Shown one piece after another: positions 2-49,029 of a stretch of DNA of 64,000 bases. The notes under the pieces are model-generated. The model worked only from the letters and a program-made list of their open reading frames with translations, had not been told where the DNA came from and ran no database searches. Location of the stretch: the IMG/VR virus record IMGVR_UViG_3300006921_000009, positions 1 to 64,000 of that record. One strand, written 5' to 3'. Source of the stretch: a virus. The position numbers were made by a program, and so were the translations under genes. Numbering within the stretch: the stretch's first letter is position 1; every line of letters begins with the position of its first letter.

Positions 2-1108
2 CTTAGTGCTAACGGAGTAACACTAGAGCAAGCTAAAGCTGCAATACCTGGTTTAGGCGGTAAGATAAAAGATTGGTTTCAAAGAGGTGTTGACTATTTA
101 GAACCAACACAACAAAGTAGTGAGGTTGAATTAAAATACTCACCTGTAAATATGTCTGGGTATGGAAAATCTTATAAACAGGAAGATATATCTGAAGGAG
201 GTAAAGAAATAATATTTAATCCTTACAAGCAATTATTTAAAATAAATGATGGTGTTTTATCTGCTAATATAGATGATATAGATGGTAAAACTTTTTATCC
301 AATATCTGTAGATCTTAGTAATACTTCTGAATATTTAGATTATAAAGCAAAAAAAGATACACTTGATGCTGAAAGAAAAAGACTAAGAGAAGCAGGGGAA
401 AAAGGTATTGAAGATATGCTTAGGGGAAAGGGAGCATCTATGAGTCTAGCAACAAAACAAATGCTAAACTTATTGGGTAAGGAGCTTGGAAAGAAAAATA
501 GCATTGCCGCATTTAAAGGAGATACTTTATCTCAACCAACACAACAAGCTAGTGAGGTTGCAGCCGGTAATACTTACAAAGGTTTAAAAGTAATTAATAC
601 TACTGATATTGTAAACAAAGAAGGTAAGAAAGGAGCTGCACAATATAATGCATCTACTGGAACTATTAAAGTTAATAGAAGTTTCTTAGAAAAAAAGTTT
701 GAAGAAAAGGCTTGGACTAATCCTAGAGACTTAATAGAAACAATACATGGTGAAAAAATTAAAAATCCAGCTAATGCTTTACCTGCTGATCAGTTTAAGA
801 CTTATCAAGAATGGGAAAACTTTGTAATGGAACATGAAAGACAGCATAGTCTTTTGTCTAGAGCAGAGTTTGATGCTACTGTACCTTTTCAAACACATGT
901 ATCAGATTACGAGAATGAAATTAACCAACGTGCCTTAGCTAGTATAGAAGCAGACAAAACATCTGTAACAGCTAAAGATACTAAGTCAGTTTCAAATACA
1001 ATTGCAATGTTCCAAAAAGGAATTAAAGCAGAAAACAAAAAACAAATAGACGTAAAATACGTGGAAACAGTACTAAATAATGATGAATTTGATAGGAATC
1101 CTTGTTAA
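2..1108 (+). CDS. Zincin-motif protein, 5' end outside the window (partial)
   Basis: The frame is open from the window edge, so the true start lies upstream; the first internal ATG is at 152. The visible part is about 368 codons, lysine-rich and mostly hydrophilic. An HExxH zinc-metallopeptidase motif (HERQH) is encoded at 833-847. A degenerate repeat, PTQQxSEV, occurs once near the window edge (about 107-133) and again near 532-560, hinting at a modular multidomain protein. It lies just upstream of the giant polymerase polypeptide on the same strand, which has two more HExxH motifs. Zincin domains are a known part of the large 'polyvalent' proteins that phages eject with their DNA, so I infer a virion-delivered protein. 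The specific function is unknown; the motif alone does not prove protease activity. Confidence 0.75.
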   Translation, partial: LSANGVTLEQAKAAIPGLGGKIKDWFQRGVDYLEPTQQSSEVELKYSPVNMSGYGKSYKQEDISEGGKEIIFNPYKQLFKINDGVLSANIDDIDGKTFYPISVDLSNTSEYLDYKAKKDTLDAERKRLREAGEKGIEDMLRGKGASMSLATKQMLNLLGKELGKKNSIAAFKGDTLSQPTQQASEVAAGNTYKGLKVINTTDIVNKEGKKGAAQYNASTGTIKVNRSFLEKKFEEKAWTNPRDLIETIHGEKIKNPANALPADQFKTYQEWENFVMEHERQHSLLSRAEFDATVPFQTHVSDYENEINQRALASIEADKTSVTAKDTKSVSNTIAMFQKGIKAENKKQIDVKYVETVLNNDEFDRNPC

Positions 1109-1115
1109 AAATTCG

Positions 1116-1123
1116 TATATTTG
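1116..1123 (+). promoter_or_regulatory. Bacteroidota-type -7 element TATATTTG
   Basis: This matches the TAnnTTTG -7 box used by the primary sigma factor of Bacteroidota. It sits 15 bases upstream of the ATG at 1139, right after the stop of the preceding gene. There is no well-spaced -33 TTG; a TTTG at 1088-1091 is slightly too far away. Confidence 0.6.
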
Positions 1124-1138
1124 TAAAAACTAAAATTC

Positions 1139-4100
1139 ATGAGCAAATTTTGTCCAAATAAAAATACAGCTGATTTTAAATCAATGTCAGCTGCACTAGG
1201 AGATAGCATAGCTACTTCTGTATGGTATGAGAATAGCGGTGAGCCAATCTGGAATAATCCAGATGGTTCGCCTTCTACCTTATGGAATGAGTTAACTAGT
1301 CATCCTGGTGTTAAAGATATGGAGCATGCTACTCAAATAAAGAGTAACATGTATACCAAGTCATTTAAGAATGCGTTCCCTAACAGAACATCTGAGCCTA
1401 CTATGGCAGAGCTAATGAACTTCATTAATAATAAGAATGAAGTAGCTGCTAGATTTGCGCTGTATCAGGAACTTAAACTTACTGACAAAAATGATCCAAC
1501 TAAGCCAATCAAATGGAGTGATACAACTGCTAACTATAAGAAAGTTCTTAAACTAGTACAGAAGATTAATTCAGGAGAAAGAGCTAATGCAAAGATCGTT
1601 AAAGTAGCGTCTGGTAATAAATCTTTTATTACTATCCAACTTACACCTAAGACTGCATTCACAACTGCAGAAGGTGACGTTACAGCATCTTTTGATGCTA
1701 AGACCGGTACTATTACTTTTGGTGAGAAAGGATTAACTGCAGAGACAGTTATCCATGAATTCGCTCATCCATTTGTTGATGCACTGGCTACAAACAATCC
1801 TAAATTATACAAAAACTTATTAGCTTCTATCAAGAAAGATTCTAATGTACCTGAAATTGCTAAGATCTTAGATCACGTAGCAACTAACTACAAAGGAAAC
1901 AAAACGATAGCAGATAAAGAATTACTTGCGTATACTATTTCAGAGTACGGTAAAGGTAACATTGATGTTTCTACAGGGACTAATACTAAAACAGCTATAA
2001 AAAGATTTTATGACTGGTTAAATAGCTTAGCCGCTGATGTAATAAAAGCAATCAAAAAAGATGGTACTATCTATGTTGATAGAATTAATCCTAAGACTCC
2101 TTATAATACAGTAGCTGATATCTTTACAGTATATTCAGAGTTAGGTACAATAGATTTATCTGCTTCGCCAGTTGTAGCTGAGTTAACATCTAAAGCTAAA
2201 ACAGATCCTAAGACTATAGCTCAAGCTAAACCTGTTATGTCTGCATTGCAGAAAAAGATGGCAGAGCGTAAAGCTAAAAGTACAAAAGAAGTTCCACCAG
2301 CTTATAAAATGGTAGAAACTAAAGATGCAGAGTTTGTTGATATTGTAGATGAAGCAAATCACATGTCTTCTTTACTACCTAAAGAAATAGCTACAGAGTT
2401 AACAGACGGATACGTTAAAGTACTCTCTGGAGGACAAGCTGTAGTAGGTATGTTTGAAGATGCTATGATTTCCTTATCTAAACAAGGACCAAAAGGTACA
2501 GCTTACCATGAAGGTTTCCACGCAGTATTTAGAACATTACTTGACGCAGATGCACAAGCAGCTTTGTATACAGAAGCTAAGGCAGAGTATGTAGATCCTA
2601 CAGCAAAAGATATTTTTGATTTACAGTTACAGCATAACATCTCTGCAGCAGAAGCTCAGAAACTTTACTATGAAGAGTTAATGGCAGATGACTTTGCACT
2701 TTTTATGTCAAACCCAGCTGAAGAGTTTTCTCCAGGTATTAGAGGTTTCTTTGAAAAGATAGCTAACTGGATTTCTGAAGTATTTAATAAACCAACAAAG
2801 AAAGATAAATTATTTAAAAATATAAGTTTAGGTAAATACACTAAACAGACTCCTAATATTACTAGAGGTATTGCTTACAAAGTACATCCTTTATTTAGTA
2901 TACAGGACGTTAATACAATTACAAGAGAGTTAGCATCAGTTGCTTTCCAAAATATAAATACAATAGATGACTTAAGAGCTAGTTCAGTTACTTTAAGTAC
3001 TATTGCAGATAGTATTACTGACTCTGCTATTGCTGCAGAAGAAACAGGAAACACGGAATTAATAGAAAGATTAGAATTACTGTTTGATCAGGAGACTGGT
3101 GAAATTGATATGTTCTGGTTAAAAGAAGTAGATGCTTACTTACGTAACTCTTTAGGTCTTGTAACTAAAAGAGCAAAGAAAGAACAAAAGATTACAGAAG
3201 ATTCTCAAGAAGAACTAAGTGATGAAGATTTAGATAAAGGTAATTTCCTTAAGTCTTCTTATGAGATATCAGGTAAAACTAATGCTACTGCTGCAGTTAA
3301 GTTTTTAGTTGCTATGACTCCTAAAATGGAACTAATCAACAAAGCTAAACCAGCTACAATAGAGAACATGACACAAACTCTAAGTCCTTTAACCGGTCTT
3401 CCGGTATTAGTTGACTTTGGTATGTTCTACAATGATGTAGAGAATAGTTTATCTAATATTGTTAGTACAAAGGTTAAAGGTGTTCCTACAGATCCATTGG
3501 CTACTATGTTACTTGAGTTAAAAAAACAATCTAAGTATAAGCCAGAGATGTTAACATTGGCTGCTAAGATTGAAAACGCAAGTGAAGAAGTTAGAACACA
3601 ATTCTTTAAAGCTTTTTCTAAGAACAAAGGTAGTTTTGTACATCACCAAATTTCTAGTAATACATCAGCACAAGAGGTTGATAAAAAAATCTATAGCTCT
3701 AAACTAACTACTTCTAACTTTAGTACTAAGTCTACTATTATTACACAGAATTGGATACAAGGTTTTGCTAAAGCATTTTCTACGAGAGAAAACAACCAGG
3801 ATATATATGATGTAGCTAAGCAAGAAGTATTTGCATTAGAGTCTCAGTTGTTACGTAATGACATTGTACAATTTGTAAAAGAAACTACAGCAGGTGTTAA
3901 ACCAACAGTTAAGCCTTTAGCTACATTTACTAAAGTATTAAATAGCTTAGGTGTTACATTAAATCCTAATACTCTTAATTATATTATAGAAGAGAGATTA
4001 CAAACTGAAGAAGGTGTTTCTTATGAAGAATCTTACTCAGAAGCATTAGAGGATTTGTATTATGATTTTACACAGGCTACTAGAACATTAAAAGATAAGT

Positions 4101-7100
4101 CAGGTGATATATTTAATAACAATCATATTGCTGATGAAGGTAGTTTCTTTACAGGAGTTTTAGCTGAAGCTGAGGCTTACTTTAAACAACTTCCTGGTGA
4201 GAATGCATTTGTTGGACCAGATGGTAACACAATATATTCTTATCAAAATAATGATTCAGTATCTAAAACATTAGGTGCTATTAAGCAAGGTGATTTAACA
4301 CACTTAGAGAACGTAGCAAAGTCTGCTTACGGTAAACACTCTATCTGGACTAAGTCAATGCTAGATTCAGTTAACGGTTCTATTAACATTGAAGAGTTTG
4401 GTGTACATATGTACGGAAACTTGAAATCAGAGGCGACTGCTGGGGATAAAGGAGCTAAGGCTTCTGAGCTTAAACCTATTGATGCTTATATGGATCAAGT
4501 TAATAAACAACTTAGCGGTTATTATATTGGACTTGCAGAAGCAGATAAGTCTAGACAATCTTACTTTAAAGGACCTGAGTTATTAAACTCTGCATTTACT
4601 GTTAATAATGACAATAAATTTGTAATGTCAGTTAAAGGACAAGGTATGAAAGCAATACAGGGTTACTTAGCAGATGAGCTGTCGCGTATGAGCATTGCTC
4701 ATGATGTAGTGTACGGAACAGCCACTGCTGAGTCTCTTCCTGAAGAACAATGGATCTTAAACTACCATTACTACAATGCACCTAAAGATTATACAGGTGT
4801 ACGTATAGGTAAAGATGGCGATAAGATACCAGGTAATGCATTTCACAGTTTCTTATTCCCGGACATAAACTTAGAGAGTTTAGGTCTAAAGAATGCTAAC
4901 GGAACTATGAACGCTCTTAGTGATCAAAACTTTTGGAGTAGTAAACCTATTCAAGAAATGATTAAAACTAAGTTTGGTGCATTAGTACAAGATGAAATGG
5001 AACATGCTGCAAAGATTGGTCTATTAACTAAAAAAGAAGACGGTACATTTGAAAACAATTTAATTAGTGCTAGTATTATAACTAACCCATCTAAAAAATA
5101 TACACAAGGTGGAGCTGTTGACATAACAAGAGTAATGGCTGATTATGTTCTTAACTCTATAGTAGGTAACATTGAACAAACTAAATTGTTTAATATGGAT
5201 CCTGCAGGATATAAGGTTAAAGGTGTTGGTACAAAGAAATGGTCTGAAGTAGATCACTTTGGAGATTTTATGAAAAGAATCCCTGCAGCGTTTGCATCAG
5301 GACTTGATTATAGAATCTTTAACACTAAGGACGGTATACCAGTAGTAAGACCAACATATACATCGGCTACAATAGCTAACATTACTGTTCCTTCTGCATT
5401 TTTTGGAACTACTAATGAAAATGGAGATGTTTCTTTTAATAAAGATAACTTAAAAGAAGTAGCTAAAGTAACAGGTTTATCTATGTCAGAGCTGGAAGAT
5501 TTGTTTGCTCCTTACTTGGAGATTAACCAAACAGATGCCCAGGCTTGGATTACTTTAGATACATATAAAGAAAGATTAAATGGTACAGGACAATGGACTC
5601 CAGCACATGAAACTGCATATCAAGCAGCTATAGCCGGTGAACAATTGGATTCTGTCAATACTAAGTTGTTAGCTCAACCATTAAAGACTGTTCACGCAGA
5701 ACCTTATATGACTGCTAACAATGAGATGATAATGCAATACAACAAGCAATCAGAAGCTGTATTACTTCCGTTTATGAAGAACACGGAGTTAGGACAGTTG
5801 ATGAAAGCAATGGAAACAAAAGGAGTAGATCACGTTATTACTTTAGATGGTAAGAAAGCTGGTGCTTCTGGTATTGTTGATATTACAGATGAGAACAATA
5901 AAATTAAGCCTGCAGGTGACATTAAAATGAACCCTGTTAATCTTAGTTATAACTACTTATTCTTACAACAAGATTTACCAACTAAGCAAGTTAGTGCAAA
6001 GTTAGTAGGTTCTCAGATGAGTAAAAATGTTTTATCTGTTGTTAAATTAGACGGTGAATATTTTAATGACTTAAACGGACAAGAGGTAACTGATTTACAT
6101 CACGCTACTATAGGACGTTTATCTGATGCAGGACTAGTTGAACTTGATAAAAGTTTAGATTACAATCCTGAAACTAAGAGGTTTGGTTTTGAAACAGATC
6201 CTAATGCAACTTCTAAAGTACACAAAACTGTACAGAAAGAATTTGAAGGAGAAATTTCTGAAAACCACCAACAAGCATTAGAAGAAAACATTGCGTTTGA
6301 TGCATTACCAATTAAGACAAAAATAATGAACAAGTTAATGGCTCTTGTAACAAAGAAGACCGTTAAACTTAAACAACAAGGTGCATCTCTAATTCAGTTA
6401 TCTGATTTAGGTTTCTTAGGTTCAGAAGTTAAATTAAATGATAAAGTTAAAGACGGTATTGTTTGGTTTAAAGATCCTACAGAAAGATTGCAACCAATGC
6501 ACATTAAGGAAGGTGAAGTTAAAGCTGCACAAATCTTAATGCCACACAGTAAGATAGTTGATATGCTAGCTGGTTCATCTAAAAAAGCTATAGAAGCTCA
6601 AGATGCATTAGAAAAAGCACACGGAACTAGAAACTTTAAAGAGTTAACACACGAACAACTTAAAGATCTTATTGAAGGAGGAGTTTTAGAAGGATTAAGT
6701 TACCGTATTCCTAATCAGGGTCCATCATCTAATGATGCCTTTGAGATAGTAGGTATATTACCTGCAGAGATGGGAGATACAATGGTAGCCTTTTCTGATG
6801 TAACAACAAAGACTGGATCAGATTTTGATATTGATAAAGCGTTTGTTATGGTTCCTAATTTCTACTTTGATGCAAAAGCTGGTAAAGTTAAGAAAGTAGG
6901 TTATGACTTAAACAACCTAGAAGAGACAAGTAAAGCAGGTCTAGAGAATTTACGTTTAGATTTAGCAAGAGAGATGTTAATGCATCCTTCAGCTTATGCT
7001 TCTGTAATGGCTCCATTAGATGATCCATGGTTAGAGAAAGCAGCTAAGAATCTTTACCCAGAAGTTGGTGCAAAACGAGCTATGGAATTCTTTACAGGTA

Positions 7101-9142
7101 GAGTACAGTTAAATAATAAATCTACATTTGACGGTGCTAAGTCTTTGATTGGTGTAATTGCCAACCACATGACAAGTCACTCTTTATTTATGGTAGAAGA
7201 CATATCGTTTACTGATTACTACTTAGGGGTAGGACAAACAGGAAACGGTGGTAATACTACTTTATCTAATAAGTTTGATGTTAATGGTAAAGAGATTGCT
7301 GGTACACTAGGTGCATATATGAATGCAATTGTGGATGCTGCAAAAGATGCTTACATTAGTAGAGCAAACATTAACCAAACAACTGCAGGTACAGCATTTA
7401 TGTTAGCTAGAGCAGGTGTAGATAGAAACTGGATTAATGCCTTTATGGGTCAACCAGCTATTAAAGATTTAGTTGCAGCACAAGATGCAGCTGAAGGTAG
7501 GTTTGGTTCTCCTGTTTATGATGAAGTTAATCAGAAATATTTATCTGCTGTAGAAACTGTATTACGTAAATATGGTGAAACAGAAATGACAGATTCACAG
7601 TTTAGAGAGTCTAAAGCAGTAAAAGGATTAAGAAGAAGTAAGTCAGAATCTATTAAAGTATCTACTTCTGATTTAGAAACTGCAATATTAAACCCAGAGA
7701 AAAGTAAATTAGATCAGTTAGCTGTTCTTAAACAGTTCTTAGAGTACCAAGGACAGGCAGGACAATTAAATGAGGTAATTAAAGTATCTAAAGCAGATGT
7801 TGAAGGTGCAACTAAGAATATAGTTTCAGCTCACTTAGCTCTTAACTTAATGAAAAAGGTAACAGAAAATGATACTTTTACCGGGGTTAATGATTACTTA
7901 GGTGTAGACATGTCTGAATTGTCACTTACTTTTAAGCAAGGTGCTGAAGGTAAAATGATAGGACGTTACTTTGAGAATTCAGTAATAGGTGCACTAGAGA
8001 GATTTAGTAGATTCTTTATTGCAGGTTCTGCAGCATCTATGGAAACAATAGAAGGTGTAGCTGGTGCAGCTGGATATCAAAGTATGACTACTAATGCTGA
8101 CTTGGAAAGTTTAGCTTTTAGTATTTCTAATGAGGTTTATGCACATGCAGCTAGTAATACTAGAGCATTTAATATGAATCCTGAAGATTTACATACTCTT
8201 CTATACGGTAAAACAGGTCAACTATCTATAGCTGATAGAGTAACAAAGATGCAAAAAGATAGCAGCTTATCTGATAATCTATTACTTACCGGCTTACAAG
8301 TTAGGTCTGGACGTGATGGTGCTCCTGATAAAGTTATGTTACCTAATACAGAAACAGTTAAAGAAACAAAAGAAGGATTATATGCAGCATGGAATGAGCT
8401 TTTAGGTTCTGAAAATGCAGAAGTACGTGAGTTAGGTAGTGACTTAGCTAAGTACGCATTCTTTACTTCTGGTTTTTCTAAGTCAGTAGGTGATTTCTCT
8501 GAGCACATTCCTACGGAGTGGTTAAATGAAAGAGAATTTAATACAGATATACAAACTGCAAGACAAACTATGGATACTGATAGATATTCTTTACGGGAAA
8601 CTGAAGATACAATCTTTAAGAACCTTTACAAGAACAATCAATTAGTACCTGTTCTTAAAAGAGATTCTGCTAAACCAATAGTTTGGAAAGATGGTGGAGA
8701 TTTACAAGTACCTTTAGAAGATGCTTTTATGATTCCACAGTCTGATTCTTTAAATTATGCATTTGGTGAAGGACCTAACGGTAAAATCTTTAAAAGATTT
8801 GTTAAACGTTCGGTTCCTACTTTAAACCAATTTGGAGAGGTAACAGGTAAAGAGTATATGTTATACAAGTTAGCCGGGTACACTCATAACAAAGATGCGG
8901 TTTATGTAAGAACAAATACATTAGGTATATCCGGTAAAGGAAATAACGTTAAAGAGTATATTGGTAACCCAAACACTAGTATATTTGCTAAAAATAACGT
9001 ATCTTTGCCACAGGGGTTACAAAACCTTGTAGATGTATTAGAACAAAGAAGTATGAATCCAGAAAGTACTGAAATCAGTTTAGACGCCCAAGATAAAATG
9101 GGAGAAGTTGAAGACAGAGAGGTATTTTGTTTAATGAGATAA
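1139..9142 (+). CDS. Giant virion-type RNA polymerase polypeptide with N-terminal zincin domains
   Basis: At 2667 aa this is the largest gene in the window. Around residues 1880-1900 there is a segment reading RIPNQGPSS... followed by TGSDFDIDKAF. The aspartates D1895, D1897 and D1899 form the DxDxD metal-binding motif of two-barrel RNA polymerases. The same SDFD[IV]DK signature is characteristic of crAss-like phage polymerases such as gp66 of phi14:2, which is packaged in the virion and transcribes early genes. The N-terminal third has two HExxH motifs, HEFAH at residue 206 and HEGFH at residue 457, typical of zincin metallopeptidases; they could process the polyprotein or act on host targets. 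A coding run without interruption, and a host-type promoter just upstream, support a single large product. The RNA polymerase call is strong from the motif and gene context; the zincin activity is inferred. Confidence 0.85.
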   Translation: MSKFCPNKNTADFKSMSAALGDSIATSVWYENSGEPIWNNPDGSPSTLWNELTSHPGVKDMEHATQIKSNMYTKSFKNAFPNRTSEPTMAELMNFINNKNEVAARFALYQELKLTDKNDPTKPIKWSDTTANYKKVLKLVQKINSGERANAKIVKVASGNKSFITIQLTPKTAFTTAEGDVTASFDAKTGTITFGEKGLTAETVIHEFAHPFVDALATNNPKLYKNLLASIKKDSNVPEIAKILDHVATNYKGNKTIADKELLAYTISEYGKGNIDVSTGTNTKTAIKRFYDWLNSLAADVIKAIKKDGTIYVDRINPKTPYNTVADIFTVYSELGTIDLSASPVVAELTSKAKTDPKTIAQAKPVMSALQKKMAERKAKSTKEVPPAYKMVETKDAEFVDIVDEANHMSSLLPKEIATELTDGYVKVLSGGQAVVGMFEDAMISLSKQGPKGTAYHEGFHAVFRTLLDADAQAALYTEAKAEYVDPTAKDIFDLQLQHNISAAEAQKLYYEELMADDFALFMSNPAEEFSPGIRGFFEKIANWISEVFNKPTKKDKLFKNISLGKYTKQTPNITRGIAYKVHPLFSIQDVNTITRELASVAFQNINTIDDLRASSVTLSTIADSITDSAIAAEETGNTELIERLELLFDQETGEIDMFWLKEVDAYLRNSLGLVTKRAKKEQKITEDSQEELSDEDLDKGNFLKSSYEISGKTNATAAVKFLVAMTPKMELINKAKPATIENMTQTLSPLTGLPVLVDFGMFYNDVENSLSNIVSTKVKGVPTDPLATMLLELKKQSKYKPEMLTLAAKIENASEEVRTQFFKAFSKNKGSFVHHQISSNTSAQEVDKKIYSSKLTTSNFSTKSTIITQNWIQGFAKAFSTRENNQDIYDVAKQEVFALESQLLRNDIVQFVKETTAGVKPTVKPLATFTKVLNSLGVTLNPNTLNYIIEERLQTEEGVSYEESYSEALEDLYYDFTQATRTLKDKSGDIFNNNHIADEGSFFTGVLAEAEAYFKQLPGENAFVGPDGNTIYSYQNNDSVSKTLGAIKQGDLTHLENVAKSAYGKHSIWTKSMLDSVNGSINIEEFGVHMYGNLKSEATAGDKGAKASELKPIDAYMDQVNKQLSGYYIGLAEADKSRQSYFKGPELLNSAFTVNNDNKFVMSVKGQGMKAIQGYLADELSRMSIAHDVVYGTATAESLPEEQWILNYHYYNAPKDYTGVRIGKDGDKIPGNAFHSFLFPDINLESLGLKNANGTMNALSDQNFWSSKPIQEMIKTKFGALVQDEMEHAAKIGLLTKKEDGTFENNLISASIITNPSKKYTQGGAVDITRVMADYVLNSIVGNIEQTKLFNMDPAGYKVKGVGTKKWSEVDHFGDFMKRIPAAFASGLDYRIFNTKDGIPVVRPTYTSATIANITVPSAFFGTTNENGDVSFNKDNLKEVAKVTGLSMSELEDLFAPYLEINQTDAQAWITLDTYKERLNGTGQWTPAHETAYQAAIAGEQLDSVNTKLLAQPLKTVHAEPYMTANNEMIMQYNKQSEAVLLPFMKNTELGQLMKAMETKGVDHVITLDGKKAGASGIVDITDENNKIKPAGDIKMNPVNLSYNYLFLQQDLPTKQVSAKLVGSQMSKNVLSVVKLDGEYFNDLNGQEVTDLHHATIGRLSDAGLVELDKSLDYNPETKRFGFETDPNATSKVHKTVQKEFEGEISENHQQALEENIAFDALPIKTKIMNKLMALVTKKTVKLKQQGASLIQLSDLGFLGSEVKLNDKVKDGIVWFKDPTERLQPMHIKEGEVKAAQILMPHSKIVDMLAGSSKKAIEAQDALEKAHGTRNFKELTHEQLKDLIEGGVLEGLSYRIPNQGPSSNDAFEIVGILPAEMGDTMVAFSDVTTKTGSDFDIDKAFVMVPNFYFDAKAGKVKKVGYDLNNLEETSKAGLENLRLDLAREMLMHPSAYASVMAPLDDPWLEKAAKNLYPEVGAKRAMEFFTGRVQLNNKSTFDGAKSLIGVIANHMTSHSLFMVEDISFTDYYLGVGQTGNGGNTTLSNKFDVNGKEIAGTLGAYMNAIVDAAKDAYISRANINQTTAGTAFMLARAGVDRNWINAFMGQPAIKDLVAAQDAAEGRFGSPVYDEVNQKYLSAVETVLRKYGETEMTDSQFRESKAVKGLRRSKSESIKVSTSDLETAILNPEKSKLDQLAVLKQFLEYQGQAGQLNEVIKVSKADVEGATKNIVSAHLALNLMKKVTENDTFTGVNDYLGVDMSELSLTFKQGAEGKMIGRYFENSVIGALERFSRFFIAGSAASMETIEGVAGAAGYQSMTTNADLESLAFSISNEVYAHAASNTRAFNMNPEDLHTLLYGKTGQLSIADRVTKMQKDSSLSDNLLLTGLQVRSGRDGAPDKVMLPNTETVKETKEGLYAAWNELLGSENAEVRELGSDLAKYAFFTSGFSKSVGDFSEHIPTEWLNEREFNTDIQTARQTMDTDRYSLRETEDTIFKNLYKNNQLVPVLKRDSAKPIVWKDGGDLQVPLEDAFMIPQSDSLNYAFGEGPNGKIFKRFVKRSVPTLNQFGEVTGKEYMLYKLAGYTHNKDAVYVRTNTLGISGKGNNVKEYIGNPNTSIFAKNNVSLPQGLQNLVDVLEQRSMNPESTEISLDAQDKMGEVEDREVFCLMR

Positions 9143-9149
9143 TTGAGAT

Positions 9150-12100
9150 ATGGCAAGAAATGTAGTATGTGTCAAGGCTAGCCAACAGGCTGGCTTTGAT
9201 AAGCTAGTGGAGTTACACAAAGGTAACTCTACTTCTGCCTTTCAGGAGTTTGAAGATAATAATTTTCAAGTACCTGATAGAGCAATGGCGTTAGTCCAGG
9301 AAGATGTGACTAACAATAAGTTTGTATTAGAAGATGAAATAGAAGTTAATCCTGTAGCGATAGAGAAATCTAGAGCACTAGCTAAAGCTAAAGCAGCGAT
9401 GACTTCTAAGATTAAGAAGCTAGAAAATACAAAACACAAAGGTCTTAAAGATGTCCGTAAAGAGATGATGGATATTATGGATGAAATAGATGAGGTAGAG
9501 ACTGAAGAAAGTCTTATAGCCTTTGTACAAACCGCTGAGAACTTGAGTAAGTCTGCTGAAAGGTGGATGTCACAGTTTAAGTCTGGTGAGAAAACACCTA
9601 CTCTAGAGAACCTAAGAAGAATTAAAGAAGCTATTACAGCATTTGATTTATTACAGGATCTAAAAGAAGAGTTATTTGAAGAAGGTAAACGTACAGAATT
9701 ATTTGAATCTGTAGATGCAACTACTACGAGGTATGATAAAGTAAACAAAGATTACTTAACATTATCACGTAAAGTACTAGCTAAATCTTTACAGGGTAAC
9801 TTCCATAAAGTTACTAAATTGTATGAAAAGCAAGCAGAGAAGTTGTTTATACAACACAAGCGTCCACACTTAGATAAGGCAGAAATACCACAAGCACAAG
9901 CAGATTTTATTGCTAAGTATATGATAGCCAATGCAACTGACATTGAATTACGTACTATGCAGTACATTGAGAATATGTTATTGCAGTCTATTGATATACC
10001 AGCTTTAGCCTCTTGGGTAGTTAACCCTAAAGATTTGAATAATGATATTATCGGTATTGCTTTAGAGAGTCTAGAAGAAACAGATATGAAGATCTGGAAC
10101 ACTATGGAGACTATTGTAGATGATGTAGAAGAATTGAATGAAGAGTTTATTAACTATGTTGGTAAGACTAGTGATATGAAAGTTCAGTATGAGTTACTTT
10201 TAGAAAAAGATACTGAAACAGGTGAGGTTCTTCCAACAATGATCAATAGAGGTTCCCCAGGATGGCAACAGTTTAAAGCTAAATATGAGTCTGTACCAGC
10301 TGTTTGGAACTTGTATGAGCAATTAGATAAAATGGTTAACGAAAAAAATAAGATGGTTTACCATAGTGCTAGACTAGATTATACTTTACCTATGATTGAA
10401 CAAACAGGTGTAGAGCGTTTATATGACCAAGGTGTTGTTTCTTTTATTAAAGACGGTGTTGGTGATATTTATAAACTAAGAGCTAAAGATGTTGAGTTAG
10501 GTAATATATCTGACGAGCAACTTAACCAATCTAAACTTGATAATGCTACTGAAGTAGAGGATGTTTATATTACTGAAGCAGGTGAAGAAAGAGCTACTAT
10601 ACCTTTACACTATAGAAACACAACTATAGAAGAAGAAAAACAATCTTTTGATGTAATGAGAGCTATGGTATTAGATTATCATAATTCTTTAAAGTTCCAG
10701 GCTAAGACTGAGAACGCAATATTTTTAGATGTACTTAAAGATGTTGTACATGAATCAGATATAGTTGCTACTACAAACTTTGTACAGAAACTAAAAAGAA
10801 ATAAAGAGACAGGACACTTACATACTGAATCACGTGATAAAGTATCTAATTTAGAAGGTGTACTAGAAGCATTGATTAGACATAGAATATACGGTATTAA
10901 GATTGAAGGAGATCCTAAAACTGCTAAGATGATGCAAAGTTTAGCTAAGTATACTTCTTTCCTTACAATGAGTGTAAATACTATGTCAGGTATATCTAAT
11001 ATGCTACACGGTACTACAATGTCTTGGATTGAATCATTTGCTGGACGTGGAGGATATTTTTCTCCTAAAGACAGAGTAAAAGCTGTAGGACAATATAACA
11101 AAGATGTTATAAACATGTTAGCAGATGTAGGTGAAAGAAGACCAAAAAGTAAAGTTAATCTTTTAAATAGAAAGTTTAACATTATGTCAGAATCACATTT
11201 GTTAAATGGTAAATCTTTTGCCCAGAATAATAAGATTAAACGTATTGCTGAAAGTTCAGCCCTTATGTTTGCTAATGGTGCTGGAGAGCATGCTATGCAA
11301 AGTATAGTTATGTTATCTACAATGAATAATATCAAAGTTAAAGATGTTAACGGTAGTTTTTTAAATAAAGAATTTCAACCAACTACAGACAGAAATGAAG
11401 CAATTGGTATTGAAGAAGCAATGTTGAAAAACGAAGATGGAGCTTTAGAATTTCATCCTAGTGTTAACAGTACTGAGCGTACTAAAGGTGTAGGACAAGA
11501 AGACATCACTAAGATATCTAAATATATTAGACGTATTACACGTGACTTATATGGTAACTACGCTGCTGAAGATAAAGCACGTTTCCAAAGACATGCTGCA
11601 GGAGCAATTACTTCCCAGATGCGTGGTTGGTTGGTCACAGGTGTACAAAAACGTTGGAGAGGTTTAGGTGCTACTCAAGCTGGACGTAAAGGTTTTACTA
11701 AAGTAGGAGAGAAGTTTAACATTGATCTTAGTACTGTAGAAGGTTTGCACCAAGCACAGAAACTAAGTTTTAATAATGAGATAGATGACTTTGAAGAAGG
11801 TCAATATGTAACTACATTGTTATTCTTACAGACTGCAAAAACAGAAATTAAAGCTCTACGTTCTTTAGCAGGTACAACGGAAGCGTGGAATTCTATGGAT
11901 GACCAACAAAAACGTAATGTACGTAAGACTGTTATGGAGTTAGGTTTAATTGTAGGTTTCTTATTATTAGCCAATATGTTTGAAGATGATAAAGAAGACC
12001 CGGATGATATAGCAAATATGTATGCTGCTTATGTAACACGAAGAATGTATTCTGAGCTATTTACTTTTGCTAATCCTAGAGAGGCAATGAGAACATTCAG

Positions 12101-12299
12101 ATCACCAGCAATTGCGTTATCTTCTGTAGAGAATGCTCTTGATGTTACAACACAATTGTTTGACCCAACTGCTACATACAAAGGTGGAAGGCACAACAAA
12201 AAGAACAAACTAATAAGGAAAGTTAAGAAGATGATTCCGGTATTAAAACAAATAGACCGTAATGTTGAAGATTCTTACATGTTCTTAAAAAATAGTTAA
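9150..12299 (+). CDS. Large companion of the giant polymerase, probable virion/ejected protein
   Basis: A 1049-aa protein starting 7 bases after the polymerase polypeptide, so clearly cotranscribed. It is rich in charged helical sequence (for example residues 65-130, EEV/DEIDEV-type heptads) and has one hydrophobic stretch near residue 930 (GLIVGFLLLANMF) followed by an acidic DDKEDPDD cluster. The C-terminus is basic. I recognise no enzyme motif. Crass-like phages usually carry two or three giant proteins next to each other at the end of the tail module, several of which are in the capsid and enter the cell. By position this protein fits that role, perhaps as a polymerase partner or part of an ejection conduit. 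The function is inferred from context only. Confidence 0.7.
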   Translation: MARNVVCVKASQQAGFDKLVELHKGNSTSAFQEFEDNNFQVPDRAMALVQEDVTNNKFVLEDEIEVNPVAIEKSRALAKAKAAMTSKIKKLENTKHKGLKDVRKEMMDIMDEIDEVETEESLIAFVQTAENLSKSAERWMSQFKSGEKTPTLENLRRIKEAITAFDLLQDLKEELFEEGKRTELFESVDATTTRYDKVNKDYLTLSRKVLAKSLQGNFHKVTKLYEKQAEKLFIQHKRPHLDKAEIPQAQADFIAKYMIANATDIELRTMQYIENMLLQSIDIPALASWVVNPKDLNNDIIGIALESLEETDMKIWNTMETIVDDVEELNEEFINYVGKTSDMKVQYELLLEKDTETGEVLPTMINRGSPGWQQFKAKYESVPAVWNLYEQLDKMVNEKNKMVYHSARLDYTLPMIEQTGVERLYDQGVVSFIKDGVGDIYKLRAKDVELGNISDEQLNQSKLDNATEVEDVYITEAGEERATIPLHYRNTTIEEEKQSFDVMRAMVLDYHNSLKFQAKTENAIFLDVLKDVVHESDIVATTNFVQKLKRNKETGHLHTESRDKVSNLEGVLEALIRHRIYGIKIEGDPKTAKMMQSLAKYTSFLTMSVNTMSGISNMLHGTTMSWIESFAGRGGYFSPKDRVKAVGQYNKDVINMLADVGERRPKSKVNLLNRKFNIMSESHLLNGKSFAQNNKIKRIAESSALMFANGAGEHAMQSIVMLSTMNNIKVKDVNGSFLNKEFQPTTDRNEAIGIEEAMLKNEDGALEFHPSVNSTERTKGVGQEDITKISKYIRRITRDLYGNYAAEDKARFQRHAAGAITSQMRGWLVTGVQKRWRGLGATQAGRKGFTKVGEKFNIDLSTVEGLHQAQKLSFNNEIDDFEEGQYVTTLLFLQTAKTEIKALRSLAGTTEAWNSMDDQQKRNVRKTVMELGLIVGFLLLANMFEDDKEDPDDIANMYAAYVTRRMYSELFTFANPREAMRTFRSPAIALSSVENALDVTTQLFDPTATYKGGRHNKKNKLIRKVKKMIPVLKQIDRNVEDSYMFLKNS

Positions 12300-13057: not shown

Positions 13058-13891
13058 TTAAAATATGTATCTAATAGTATCTAAGTTCCAAAACTTTTGA
13101 TACTCTGCCTTAAACATTTGTATACCCTTGCTTTTTAAAGGTAAAGGGTAACGCATTACTCCAGACTGGTTCTTAACTTCATTACTGAATTGCATCATTT
13201 CTTGTGCATCAGCTTCAGCCTTAGCCATCTGGTTTGTATGGTTAGTCATAAATATAACCTCACATAAACTATCTCCTGCTACTTCCTTAACTTCTTGGAA
13301 TAAATCATGATATTCTTTAATAAAGTTATGGTACATAATTACCGGTGAATAGTTAATGTGTACTTCCCAACCTAAGTCTTTTAGTCTATTTATATCTGCT
13401 ATCCTAGAGGATATAGACTGCATTTTAGGTTCTAACACATCAGAATAAGTCTGAGGCATTAAACTTACACGTACACGTGGTGGTTTATTAAAATGATTAA
13501 CATCTAACTTAAGTAAACTAGGGTACTTTGTAGCCATCGTAGAGTTAAGTTGAGGGTGATTGTCATATCTTTTAAGATAATCCATTAGAGGCTCTGGCAT
13601 GTGCTTCTGCATCAATACTAAGTCAGTATTACATGCAATGTCTACCATTGTATATTTAGGATCTTGTTGATCTGGAACTTTTGTGTAATGTGTTTCCCAT
13701 TGAACAACAGAATTAAATATATCCTCTATGTTTTCATTGACAAAGACTCTTTGCCCATTGTGTCTTGCCATATAACAGTATGTGTTTACACAGCCACCAA
13801 AGCATCCGTAGATGACATTGGGAGCTATGCAATTTGCACTATTGTTATTGTCTTTTGTGACAAGGGTTTTTGTTTTTTGTTTTTTAATCAT
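13058..13891 (-). CDS. Radical SAM-like protein related to spore photoproduct lyase family
   Basis: A 277-aa protein with an N-terminal cysteine cluster, YGCFGGCVNTYCYMARH (about residues 28-44), preceded by a basic tail. A three-cysteine cluster followed by aromatic residues at this position is the hallmark of radical SAM enzymes, which hold a 4Fe-4S cluster and cleave S-adenosylmethionine. The spacing here is Cx3Cx4C, not the usual Cx3Cx2C. The later segment (PPRVRVSLMPQTYSDVLEP, then GWEVHINYSPVIMYHNF) has the alternating strand pattern of a TIM-barrel and resembles SplB-type DNA repair lyases, which is my best guess. The ATG of this gene overlaps the stop of the upstream zinc-ribbon gene by 4 bases, so they are translationally coupled. 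Substrate unknown. Confidence 0.6.
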   Translation of the reverse strand: MIKKQKTKTLVTKDNNNSANCIAPNVIYGCFGGCVNTYCYMARHNGQRVFVNENIEDIFNSVVQWETHYTKVPDQQDPKYTMVDIACNTDLVLMQKHMPEPLMDYLKRYDNHPQLNSTMATKYPSLLKLDVNHFNKPPRVRVSLMPQTYSDVLEPKMQSISSRIADINRLKDLGWEVHINYSPVIMYHNFIKEYHDLFQEVKEVAGDSLCEVIFMTNHTNQMAKAEADAQEMMQFSNEVKNQSGVMRYPLPLKSKGIQMFKAEYQKFWNLDTIRYIF

Positions 13892-47212: not shown

Positions 47213-47530
47213 ATGACTGAGATTAAAACAGGATACCCAACAGTATTCGGAGGAGACGTAGTAATTGCTAACCCAGCAACAAAAGAGAAAGGTGCTAAAA
47301 TAGATGAGGAAGCATCTAAGTTACCTAACAAAGAGAAAGAGGCATTTCTAGCTACAGTATTGGCTAAAATGTGGGGAGAGATTGAAATCATTGCAGTTGC
47401 AGCTGATTGTGCACGTTTTGTTGCAGGTGATATCGCTTTAGGTACACCTGAATCAATGAAGGGAGCAACAGTTACACCAGATGGTCAATATCTTATTGTA
47501 AACGAAAGAACATTTAAAGGTAAATGGTAG
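47213..47530 (+). CDS. GroES-like co-chaperonin (candidate)
   Basis: A 105-aa protein directly before a GroEL-like gene, overlapping it by 7 bases. The C-terminal half, WGEIEIIAVAADCARFVAGD followed by a strand and NERTFKGKW, resembles the GroES strand order; residues 12-48 could be the mobile loop. Phage co-chaperonins (T4 gp31, RB49 CocO) are highly diverged, so low similarity is expected. The call rests mainly on position. Confidence 0.55.
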   Translation: MTEIKTGYPTVFGGDVVIANPATKEKGAKIDEEASKLPNKEKEAFLATVLAKMWGEIEIIAVAADCARFVAGDIALGTPESMKGATVTPDGQYLIVNERTFKGKW

Positions 47531-49029
47531 GAGATTTTGTAACCATCTTAAAAGGAGAGGAGGTTCGTGCCAAATTATTAGAAGGTAGTACGGAGGCAGC
47601 TGATGCTGTCTCTACTACTTTTGGACCTTATGGTAAAAACGTGGCAATCACTATGAAGTACAATGTACCTGTAGTGACAAAGGATGGTGCAACAGTAGCA
47701 GGGTATATTAAGTTAAGAGACCAGGCTAAGAATGTAGCAGCACAATTAATTAACCAAGCAGCAAATGAGACTGCTAAGATTGCAGGTGACGGTACTACTA
47801 GTACTACAGTATTAACTAAAGGTCTTGTTGAGAGAGCTTTTAAATTAATTTCTACTGGTGTTCAGCCTATGCAACTAAAAAGAGATCTACTAGCTGTACA
47901 ACCTATAGTGTTAAGTGAGTTAGCTAAGATGAGTTCTCCAGTAGGACCAACCAGTATTAAATCAATTGCTCTTGTAGCCTGTAATGGTGATGACGCAATG
48001 GCTGAATTAGTTACTGAAGCTTTTTCTGTAGTAGGAGAAGGAGGTCACGTTACTGTAGCAGACTCACGTAGCTATGAAACTACACTAGATGCAACAGACG
48101 GTATTAAATTAGATCGTTCACATATCTTGCCTTCATTAGCAGGTGGTAGAACAAACATAAGACATAAAGACTGTAAGATTGCAGTACTAGATATGGATAT
48201 TACAACTGCAGAAGATGCATTGACTATCTTAGGTGTCCAGGAAGAACTTGGTAATCCTTTATTAGTTATTTGTAATGACCTAACGGGTGCAGCAGCAGAA
48301 GTTATAGCATTTAATAAAGAGAAGCATAAAATTGCCCTTGAGGTGATACGTGCTCCTTTCATTGCGGAAGCAAGAAAAGAGGCGTGCATTGATCTGGCAT
48401 GCGTTGCTGGCGCAACGCTTTTGAGTAAGCAAGCAGGTTGGGAAGTATCTGACTTTCAAGCTACACACTGTGGTAGTTCTGAAAGCGTTGAGATGACTTT
48501 AAAGGAAACGAACATTATTGGAAGACTCGGTAATGAGGAAGAGATCGCAAAGAGAGTATCGTTTTACGAAGATAAGATAGCAGAGGACAAAGAAGGACTA
48601 GGAGATAACTATAAGAAAAGGTTAGCTTTCTTTACTTCAGGTGCAGCTGTTATTTATGTAGGAGGATCAAATGAAACAGAAGTTGGAGAAAAGAAGACTA
48701 GAATTGATGATACAATCCGTGCAGTACGTAGTGCTATGGAAGAAGGATTCGTTACCGGTGGTGGATTGACTTATGGTCGCCTGGCAATCGGAGACCTAGC
48801 GAAGAAGTCTACGGAAGGAGCAGCAATACTATCAGAAGCTTTAGCTGACATTGTAAATGTTATTCTAAGTAACTCTGGTATTGTTACACCGGCTCAGCAT
48901 AAAGAAAGTGTAGAGACGTTAAACATTATAGATCCAACGTTAGTAATTAAATCAACAATCACGAATGCAATTGGCGCAGCCACTATGATATTCACAACAG
49001 ATTGTATAGTAATTAGAGAGGAAGATTAA
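47524..49029 (+). CDS. Phage-encoded GroEL-like chaperonin
   Basis: A 501-aa chaperonin. Signatures: TFGPYGKNVAI at the N-terminus, VVTKDGATVAGYI (Asp54), AGDGTTSTTVL (Asp89, ATP-binding), and near residue 390-415 IDDTIRAVRSAMEEGFVTGG, all in GroEL order. It is about 45 residues shorter than E. coli GroEL and ends without a GGM tail. Phage chaperonins are rare; this one is cotranscribed with a GroES-like gene and with terminase and capsid genes, so it probably folds an abundant or difficult structural protein (for example the capsid protein). Confidence 0.9.
   Translation: MVGDFVTILKGEEVRAKLLEGSTEAADAVSTTFGPYGKNVAITMKYNVPVVTKDGATVAGYIKLRDQAKNVAAQLINQAANETAKIAGDGTTSTTVLTKGLVERAFKLISTGVQPMQLKRDLLAVQPIVLSELAKMSSPVGPTSIKSIALVACNGDDAMAELVTEAFSVVGEGGHVTVADSRSYETTLDATDGIKLDRSHILPSLAGGRTNIRHKDCKIAVLDMDITTAEDALTILGVQEELGNPLLVICNDLTGAAAEVIAFNKEKHKIALEVIRAPFIAEARKEACIDLACVAGATLLSKQAGWEVSDFQATHCGSSESVEMTLKETNIIGRLGNEEEIAKRVSFYEDKIAEDKEGLGDNYKKRLAFFTSGAAVIYVGGSNETEVGEKKTRIDDTIRAVRSAMEEGFVTGGGLTYGRLAIGDLAKKSTEGAAILSEALADIVNVILSNSGIVTPAQHKESVETLNIIDPTLVIKSTITNAIGAATMIFTTDCIVIREED

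Follow-up and report, generated by a model that had tools for sequence, protein, structure and literature searches.

Crass-like phages such as phi14:2 and crAss001 share a block of three giant proteins that includes a virion RNA polymerase, and the gene boundaries of this transcription block are known to vary greatly (PMC7886860). In crAss001 the three products, gp47, gp49 and gp50, have all been detected in virions on a reducing gel (PMC6235969, PMC10172136). The Suoliviridae encode fused giant transcription proteins, of which cr118_1 (4,946 residues) is an example. A more distant parallel is the virion RNA polymerase of phage N4, which, with other polyvalent proteins carrying zincin-like-MPTase domains, combines an ejected multidomain RNA polymerase with an HExxH motif and is free of cysteine (Iyer et al. 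2017, PMC5512222). The N4 enzyme is T7-like, however, rather than a DxDxD double-psi-barrel polymerase, and is a single chain, hence without junctions; both it (3,500 residues) and the adjoining gp51 and gp52 (L176 9524-20026 and 20127-22524) have zero cysteines. Here we describe a window of 64,000 nucleotides (positions 1 to 64,000 of IMG/VR virus record IMGVR_UViG_3300006921_000009), in which a virion RNA polymerase protein of 2667 residues, R (1139-9142), lies between two giant neighbours, U (1792 residues in all, its C-terminal part at 2-1108) and D (1049 residues, 9150-12299), and in which the positions of the few cysteines suggest that the three proteins are joined end to end. U, R and D and their parts given below for the window lie on the plus strand.

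By homology, R is a crAss-like (Crassvirales) virion RNA polymerase of the phi14:2 gp66 kind. Residues 683-2607 (3185-8959) match phi14:2 gp66, PDB entry 6vr4, with E=4.9e-116, and include DFDID, the metal-binding DxDxD motif of the polymerase, at residue 1895 (6821-6835); D1895, F1896, D1897, D1899 and K1900 are among the invariant columns in our alignment A2. D matches the polymerase-associated protein gp65 of phi14:2 (E=2e-59), and U was assigned as gp47-like from its position and its homology to a 1932-residue protein of L002, a relative with 62% identity. Searches with tblastn (E<=1e-5) found 129 phage records, the named ones being for the most part crAss-like phages of Bacteroides, Cellulophaga and Flavobacterium, and the genes around the block are of crAss type; none of U, R and D had a significant family match in PHROGs or Pfam. 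The open reading frame (ORF) translation bears out the original prediction in its description of R, with HExxH motifs at 206 (HEFAH) and 457 (HEGFH) and DFDID at 1895, and the match to 6vr4 agrees with its identification of a virion-type RNA polymerase.

The window keeps the gene order of phi14:2. It differs from phi14:2 and crAss001 in that its U|R boundary lies further upstream, so that a zincin-like domain (MPT2) is found on R rather than at the end of U, and in that a further module (MPT1) has been added at the N-terminus of R. What is kept, besides the homologous polymerase and its DFDID motif, are the cysteines at the junctions. In the window the 5,508 residues of U, R and D (1792+2667+1049) contain only four cysteines, each of which sits at one of the two ORF junctions; the rest of the genome is mostly near 1% cysteine. 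C1792 (1103-1105) is both the sole cysteine and the last residue of U; it faces C5 of R (1151-1153), and at the other end C2664 of R (9128-9130) faces C7 (9168-9170), the sole cysteine of D.

Relatives were then compared. Loci were fetched from IMG/VR, their ORFs were called mechanically and redundancy was cut at 90% core identity, leaving 113 loci; junctions were then classed by ORF adjacency and size, blind to cysteine, and a cysteine was scored if it fell within the terminal 12 residues. The main counts cover about 90 non-redundant standard-code loci, and their homology classes depend on ORFs called in metagenomic contigs. TAG- and TGA-read loci stayed outside these counts because the genetic code was there our own choice. 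Also outside the counts are L054 and L079, in which the polymerase ORF is interrupted, L072, which is at a contig end, and L016, which shares its contig with L002, with L023 left out of the D counts only and cr131_1 not among the evaluated phages; an apparent junction within the polymerase of L038 was rejected as a frameshifted assembly. On this basis a cysteine is present at 187 of 188 junction-facing ends (U C-terminus 27/28, R N-terminus 28/28, R C-terminus 66/66, D N-terminus 66/66) and at 1 of 110 other ends (R N-terminus 0/37, R C-terminus 0/14, D C-terminus 1/59). Chance expectation from the total cysteine content is about 0.7% per end; in other ORFs of the same loci, which contain 1.27% cysteine, 11.5% have one in the first 12 residues and 17.6% in the last 12. 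Precisely one cysteine is found per junction end in 185 of 186 cases, and the interiors hold only 75 cysteines in 448,792 residues. The named phages phi14:2, crAss001, cr3_1, jaberico and Fpv3 all follow the same rule, phi14:2 repeating the pattern of the window and crAss001 doing so save for one interior cysteine in gp50. The junction cysteines of crAss001 are present even though its U gene runs opposite to those of R and D, which excludes an effect of stop or start context.

Gene fusions among these phages provide a natural experiment. Four gene arrangements are found. Where U, R and D are three separate genes there are two cysteine pairs. Where U and R are fused, as in the Suoliviridae, only the pair at the R|D junction remains, and where R and D are fused, as also in jaberico and cr3_1, only the pair at U|R remains. 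These two-gene arrangements fix the pairing as that of the C-terminus of one chain with the N-terminus of the next. Where all three are fused, into chains of 4.9-5.5 thousand residues, zero cysteines are found in four of the five proteins whose two ends are both visible. Phage crAss002 fits the R+D-fused pattern on condition that translation of its gp33 (L177 9957) begins at an internal MSC; the annotated start is probably 32 codons too early, and the internal one would restore the junction cysteine. In a tree built from 110 polymerase cores the split or fused state changes at least 10 times for U|R and at least 9 times for R|D, and the independent contrasts on the tree match the cysteines in 8 of 8 and 7 of 7 cases, respectively. 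Apart from the few exceptions given below, in the loci counted a cysteine pair stands at each ORF junction, with none at the outer ends and none where genes are fused.

Why should cysteines be confined to just those ends that face a neighbouring chain? Their occurrence once per neighbour-facing end, and their absence at fusions, suggests that the separate proteins are linked into one string before injection. We consider it probable, at roughly three chances in four, that the ejected U, R and D are joined head to tail by disulfides between their terminal cysteines, which would do the job that gene fusion does elsewhere; a covalent cysteine joint in place of a peptide bond would accord with all of the pattern. 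R would share the head with U and D, be ejected with the DNA, and transcribe the early genes; the C-terminal cysteine of U would pair with the N-terminal cysteine of R, and the C-terminal cysteine of R with the N-terminal cysteine of D, giving a string of about 5,500 residues held together by disulfides. Avoidance of interior cysteines would keep the joints specific, and fusion in relatives would make the cysteines dispensable. The disulfide nature of the bond, its formation in the virion and its role in ordered ejection are all three inferred from this pattern. The crAss001 tail has constrictions of <50 Å, which ejected proteins can pass only in an at least partly unfolded state (PMC10172136); a string would therefore keep both order and ratio, with the proteins entering the head and passing down the tail in a set order at 1:1:1. 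Once in the new cell the bonds might be reduced, or might simply stay. Disulfides are present in the tail of crAss001 virions (PMC10172136), so that disulfides are known to join virion proteins within this phage order; those are structural tail contacts, however, whereas the cysteines considered here are terminal and on ejected cargo. Native chemical ligation was considered and rejected, since the N-terminal junction cysteine lies at position 2-7, mostly 3-5. With somewhat less assurance, we think it likely that in crAss-like phages the transcription apparatus is maintained as a single covalent string of ~5,500 residues however many genes encode it, disulfide and fusion being evolutionarily interchangeable. 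In the literature searched, terminal cysteines or linked polymerase subunits are not mentioned, although the phi14:2 structure paper (Drobysheva 2021) fell outside that search.

The HExxH motifs of R belong to two domains that are predicted to be zincin-like, as the original prediction had proposed, and to be modules of the polyvalent-protein type. The core of the first, MPT1, spans residues about 174-271 (1658-1951), with HEFAH at 206-210 and a metal triad of H206, H210 and E261 together with E207; the second, MPT2, spans residues about 396-638 (2324-3052), with HEGFH at 457-461 and a corresponding set of H457, H461, E513 and E458. Shuffling R 5000 times gave one HExxH in 193 sequences and two in only 2, implying that two motifs in R are unlikely to have arisen by chance. 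The third-ligand glutamate is conserved in both domains, and AlphaFold models of both show a three-strand sheet, the HExxH helix and the glutamate helix in zincin order, with high local confidence near the active helices. The MPT1 model gave only weak matches in the PDB, the best being the zincin anthrax lethal factor (probability 0.54, E 0.38), and the MPT2 model gave none there at E<=0.001; its named BFVD matches at that threshold are crAss-like giant proteins, which adds homology but not function. MPT2 is conserved across crAss-like phages, being located at the end of the gp47-like protein in crAss001 and its relatives and inside a fused chain of 4.3-4.9 thousand residues in the Suoliviridae, where, as in the window, it precedes DFDID by about 1,500 residues in one chain. 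MPT2 is judged ancestral from its company: among 101 ORFs with MPT2 homologues, DxDxD is found in the same ORF in 90, at a median distance of 1,512 residues downstream. A zincin fused to a polymerase, singled out at first as worth dissecting, is therefore the usual crAss architecture, only the gene boundary in the window being unusual, and a zincin with an unrelated RNA polymerase had already been described for N4 (PMC5512222). The MPT1 module (R residues 1-330) is distributed differently: in relatives it mostly opens the downstream protein, and 81 of its 121 hits begin an ORF that lacks DxDxD. Two other observations concern such domains in phi14:2, where the C-terminus of gp67 (L005 5060-10453) is GNAT acetyltransferase-like by eye at the place where crAss001 has its zincin domain, and where g070 (L005 119-1900), annotated as a tail protein, has two HExxH motifs.

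The presence of these domains raises the question of whether R, and with it U, is a self-processing polyprotein, cut by its zincin domains, either while still in the head or once ejected, to yield mature fragments, as was first proposed. Both the window and L002 have the HExxH motifs with their glutamates in full, and DdrB of phage P1, which is likewise polyvalent and carries an MPTase, undergoes processing (PMC5512222). We nevertheless regard this as quite improbable. Neither mature fragments nor cleavage sites were seen in the present sequence-based analysis. While the catalytic glutamate of both domains is invariant among relatives, the metal histidines are replaced in many, one being absent in about 40% of MPT1 rows and the second in about 30% of MPT2 rows, and phi14:2 gp67 and gp66 have no HExxH at all. 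The N4 polymerase, with its MPTase, is packaged unprocessed (PMC5512222), and crAss001 gives gel bands near 150, 270 and >300 kDa, compared with predicted masses of 262 kDa for gp47, 154 kDa for gp49 and 277 kDa for gp50 (PMC6235969, PMC10172136), which, being near full length, argue against self-processing before packaging in crAss001. The gene boundaries, moreover, are real; the genes are already separate, and relatives join them into one instead of cutting their products. That the zincin domains are instead injected effectors that cleave host proteins, with the polymerase as their carrier, is an appreciable though lesser possibility, and one compatible with the linkage of the chains: the kind of domain and its context fit polyvalent proteins, and the domain make-up of U differs between relatives, but the degenerate metal site in many relatives counts against it.

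Other explanations concern the cysteines themselves. Terminal cysteines that jointly bind one metal ion or cofactor could clamp successive chains non-covalently, and this would account equally for the pairing and for the disappearance of the cysteines on fusion; yet each side offers a single cysteine, with no conserved histidine, aspartate or second cysteine nearby in the alignment rows of relatives, so that the sites would be weak, two-ligand ones, and we think this unlikely. The least probable of the explanations, in our estimation, is that there is no linkage, the ejected proteins avoiding cysteine and the terminal ones being left over from some unrelated signal in packaging or translation start. 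Ejected proteins are indeed generally poor in cysteine (the N4 polymerase has 0 in 3,500 residues and ejection-protein neighbours 0 in 10,884), but such a signal should also be seen at the N-terminus of U or U+R (0/37) and the C-terminus of D (1/59), and the cysteines track junctions, on both strands, through repeated fusions. Several points weigh against disulfide linkage. The cytoplasm of the host is reducing and the gut anaerobic, which bears on when the bond would form. The sign tests on the tree rest on few pairs (p=0.008 and p=0.016). Exceptions exist in L043, where the cysteine of U is 31 residues from its end, in L029, where there is one close to the C-terminus of D, and in L135, which is fully fused and has three interior cysteines; TAG-recoded lineages have many interior cysteines, their junction ends mostly keeping one. 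The crAss001 virion gel, being a reducing one, speaks neither for nor against disulfides (PMC6235969).

The third HExxH of the region, HERQH (833-847), is present in U as the original prediction had noted, but U is not a truncated gene. The far-end ORF of the 87,304-base record G000 (L004 15035-19305) continues in frame into base 1 of the window to give the full 1792 residues, so that U is cut only by the arbitrary end of the contig and not biologically. G000 is likely to be circular, and is probably a circularly permuted complete genome that may be classed as linear; its end join sits in a stretch without alignment to L002. Homologues of HERQH are found in L002 and L152 only, L002 keeping both HExxH motifs of R as well. 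The interior of U looks exchangeable between relatives. In L002, residues about 1500-1700 of the U protein encoded at 771-6569 seem by eye PD-(D/E)XK nuclease-like, and U of the window is unrelated there. Elsewhere in the window are a spore photoproduct lyase-related protein just beyond the transcription block (13058-13891, Pfam E=3e-14) and a chaperonin of the TCP-1/cpn60 family (47524-49029, Pfam E=4e-42).

Linkage through terminal cysteines would explain the variable gene boundaries of the crAss transcription block, and would offer a reason why giant cargo proteins could pass out of a narrow tail in a set sequence and in equal amounts. The terminal-cysteine rule also aids annotation, indicating the true start of crAss002 gp33. 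If the linkage is real, it would represent a new way of building an ejected multi-protein machine and, if confirmed, the use of terminal cysteines in place of gene fusion would offer a design from nature for linking large proteins.
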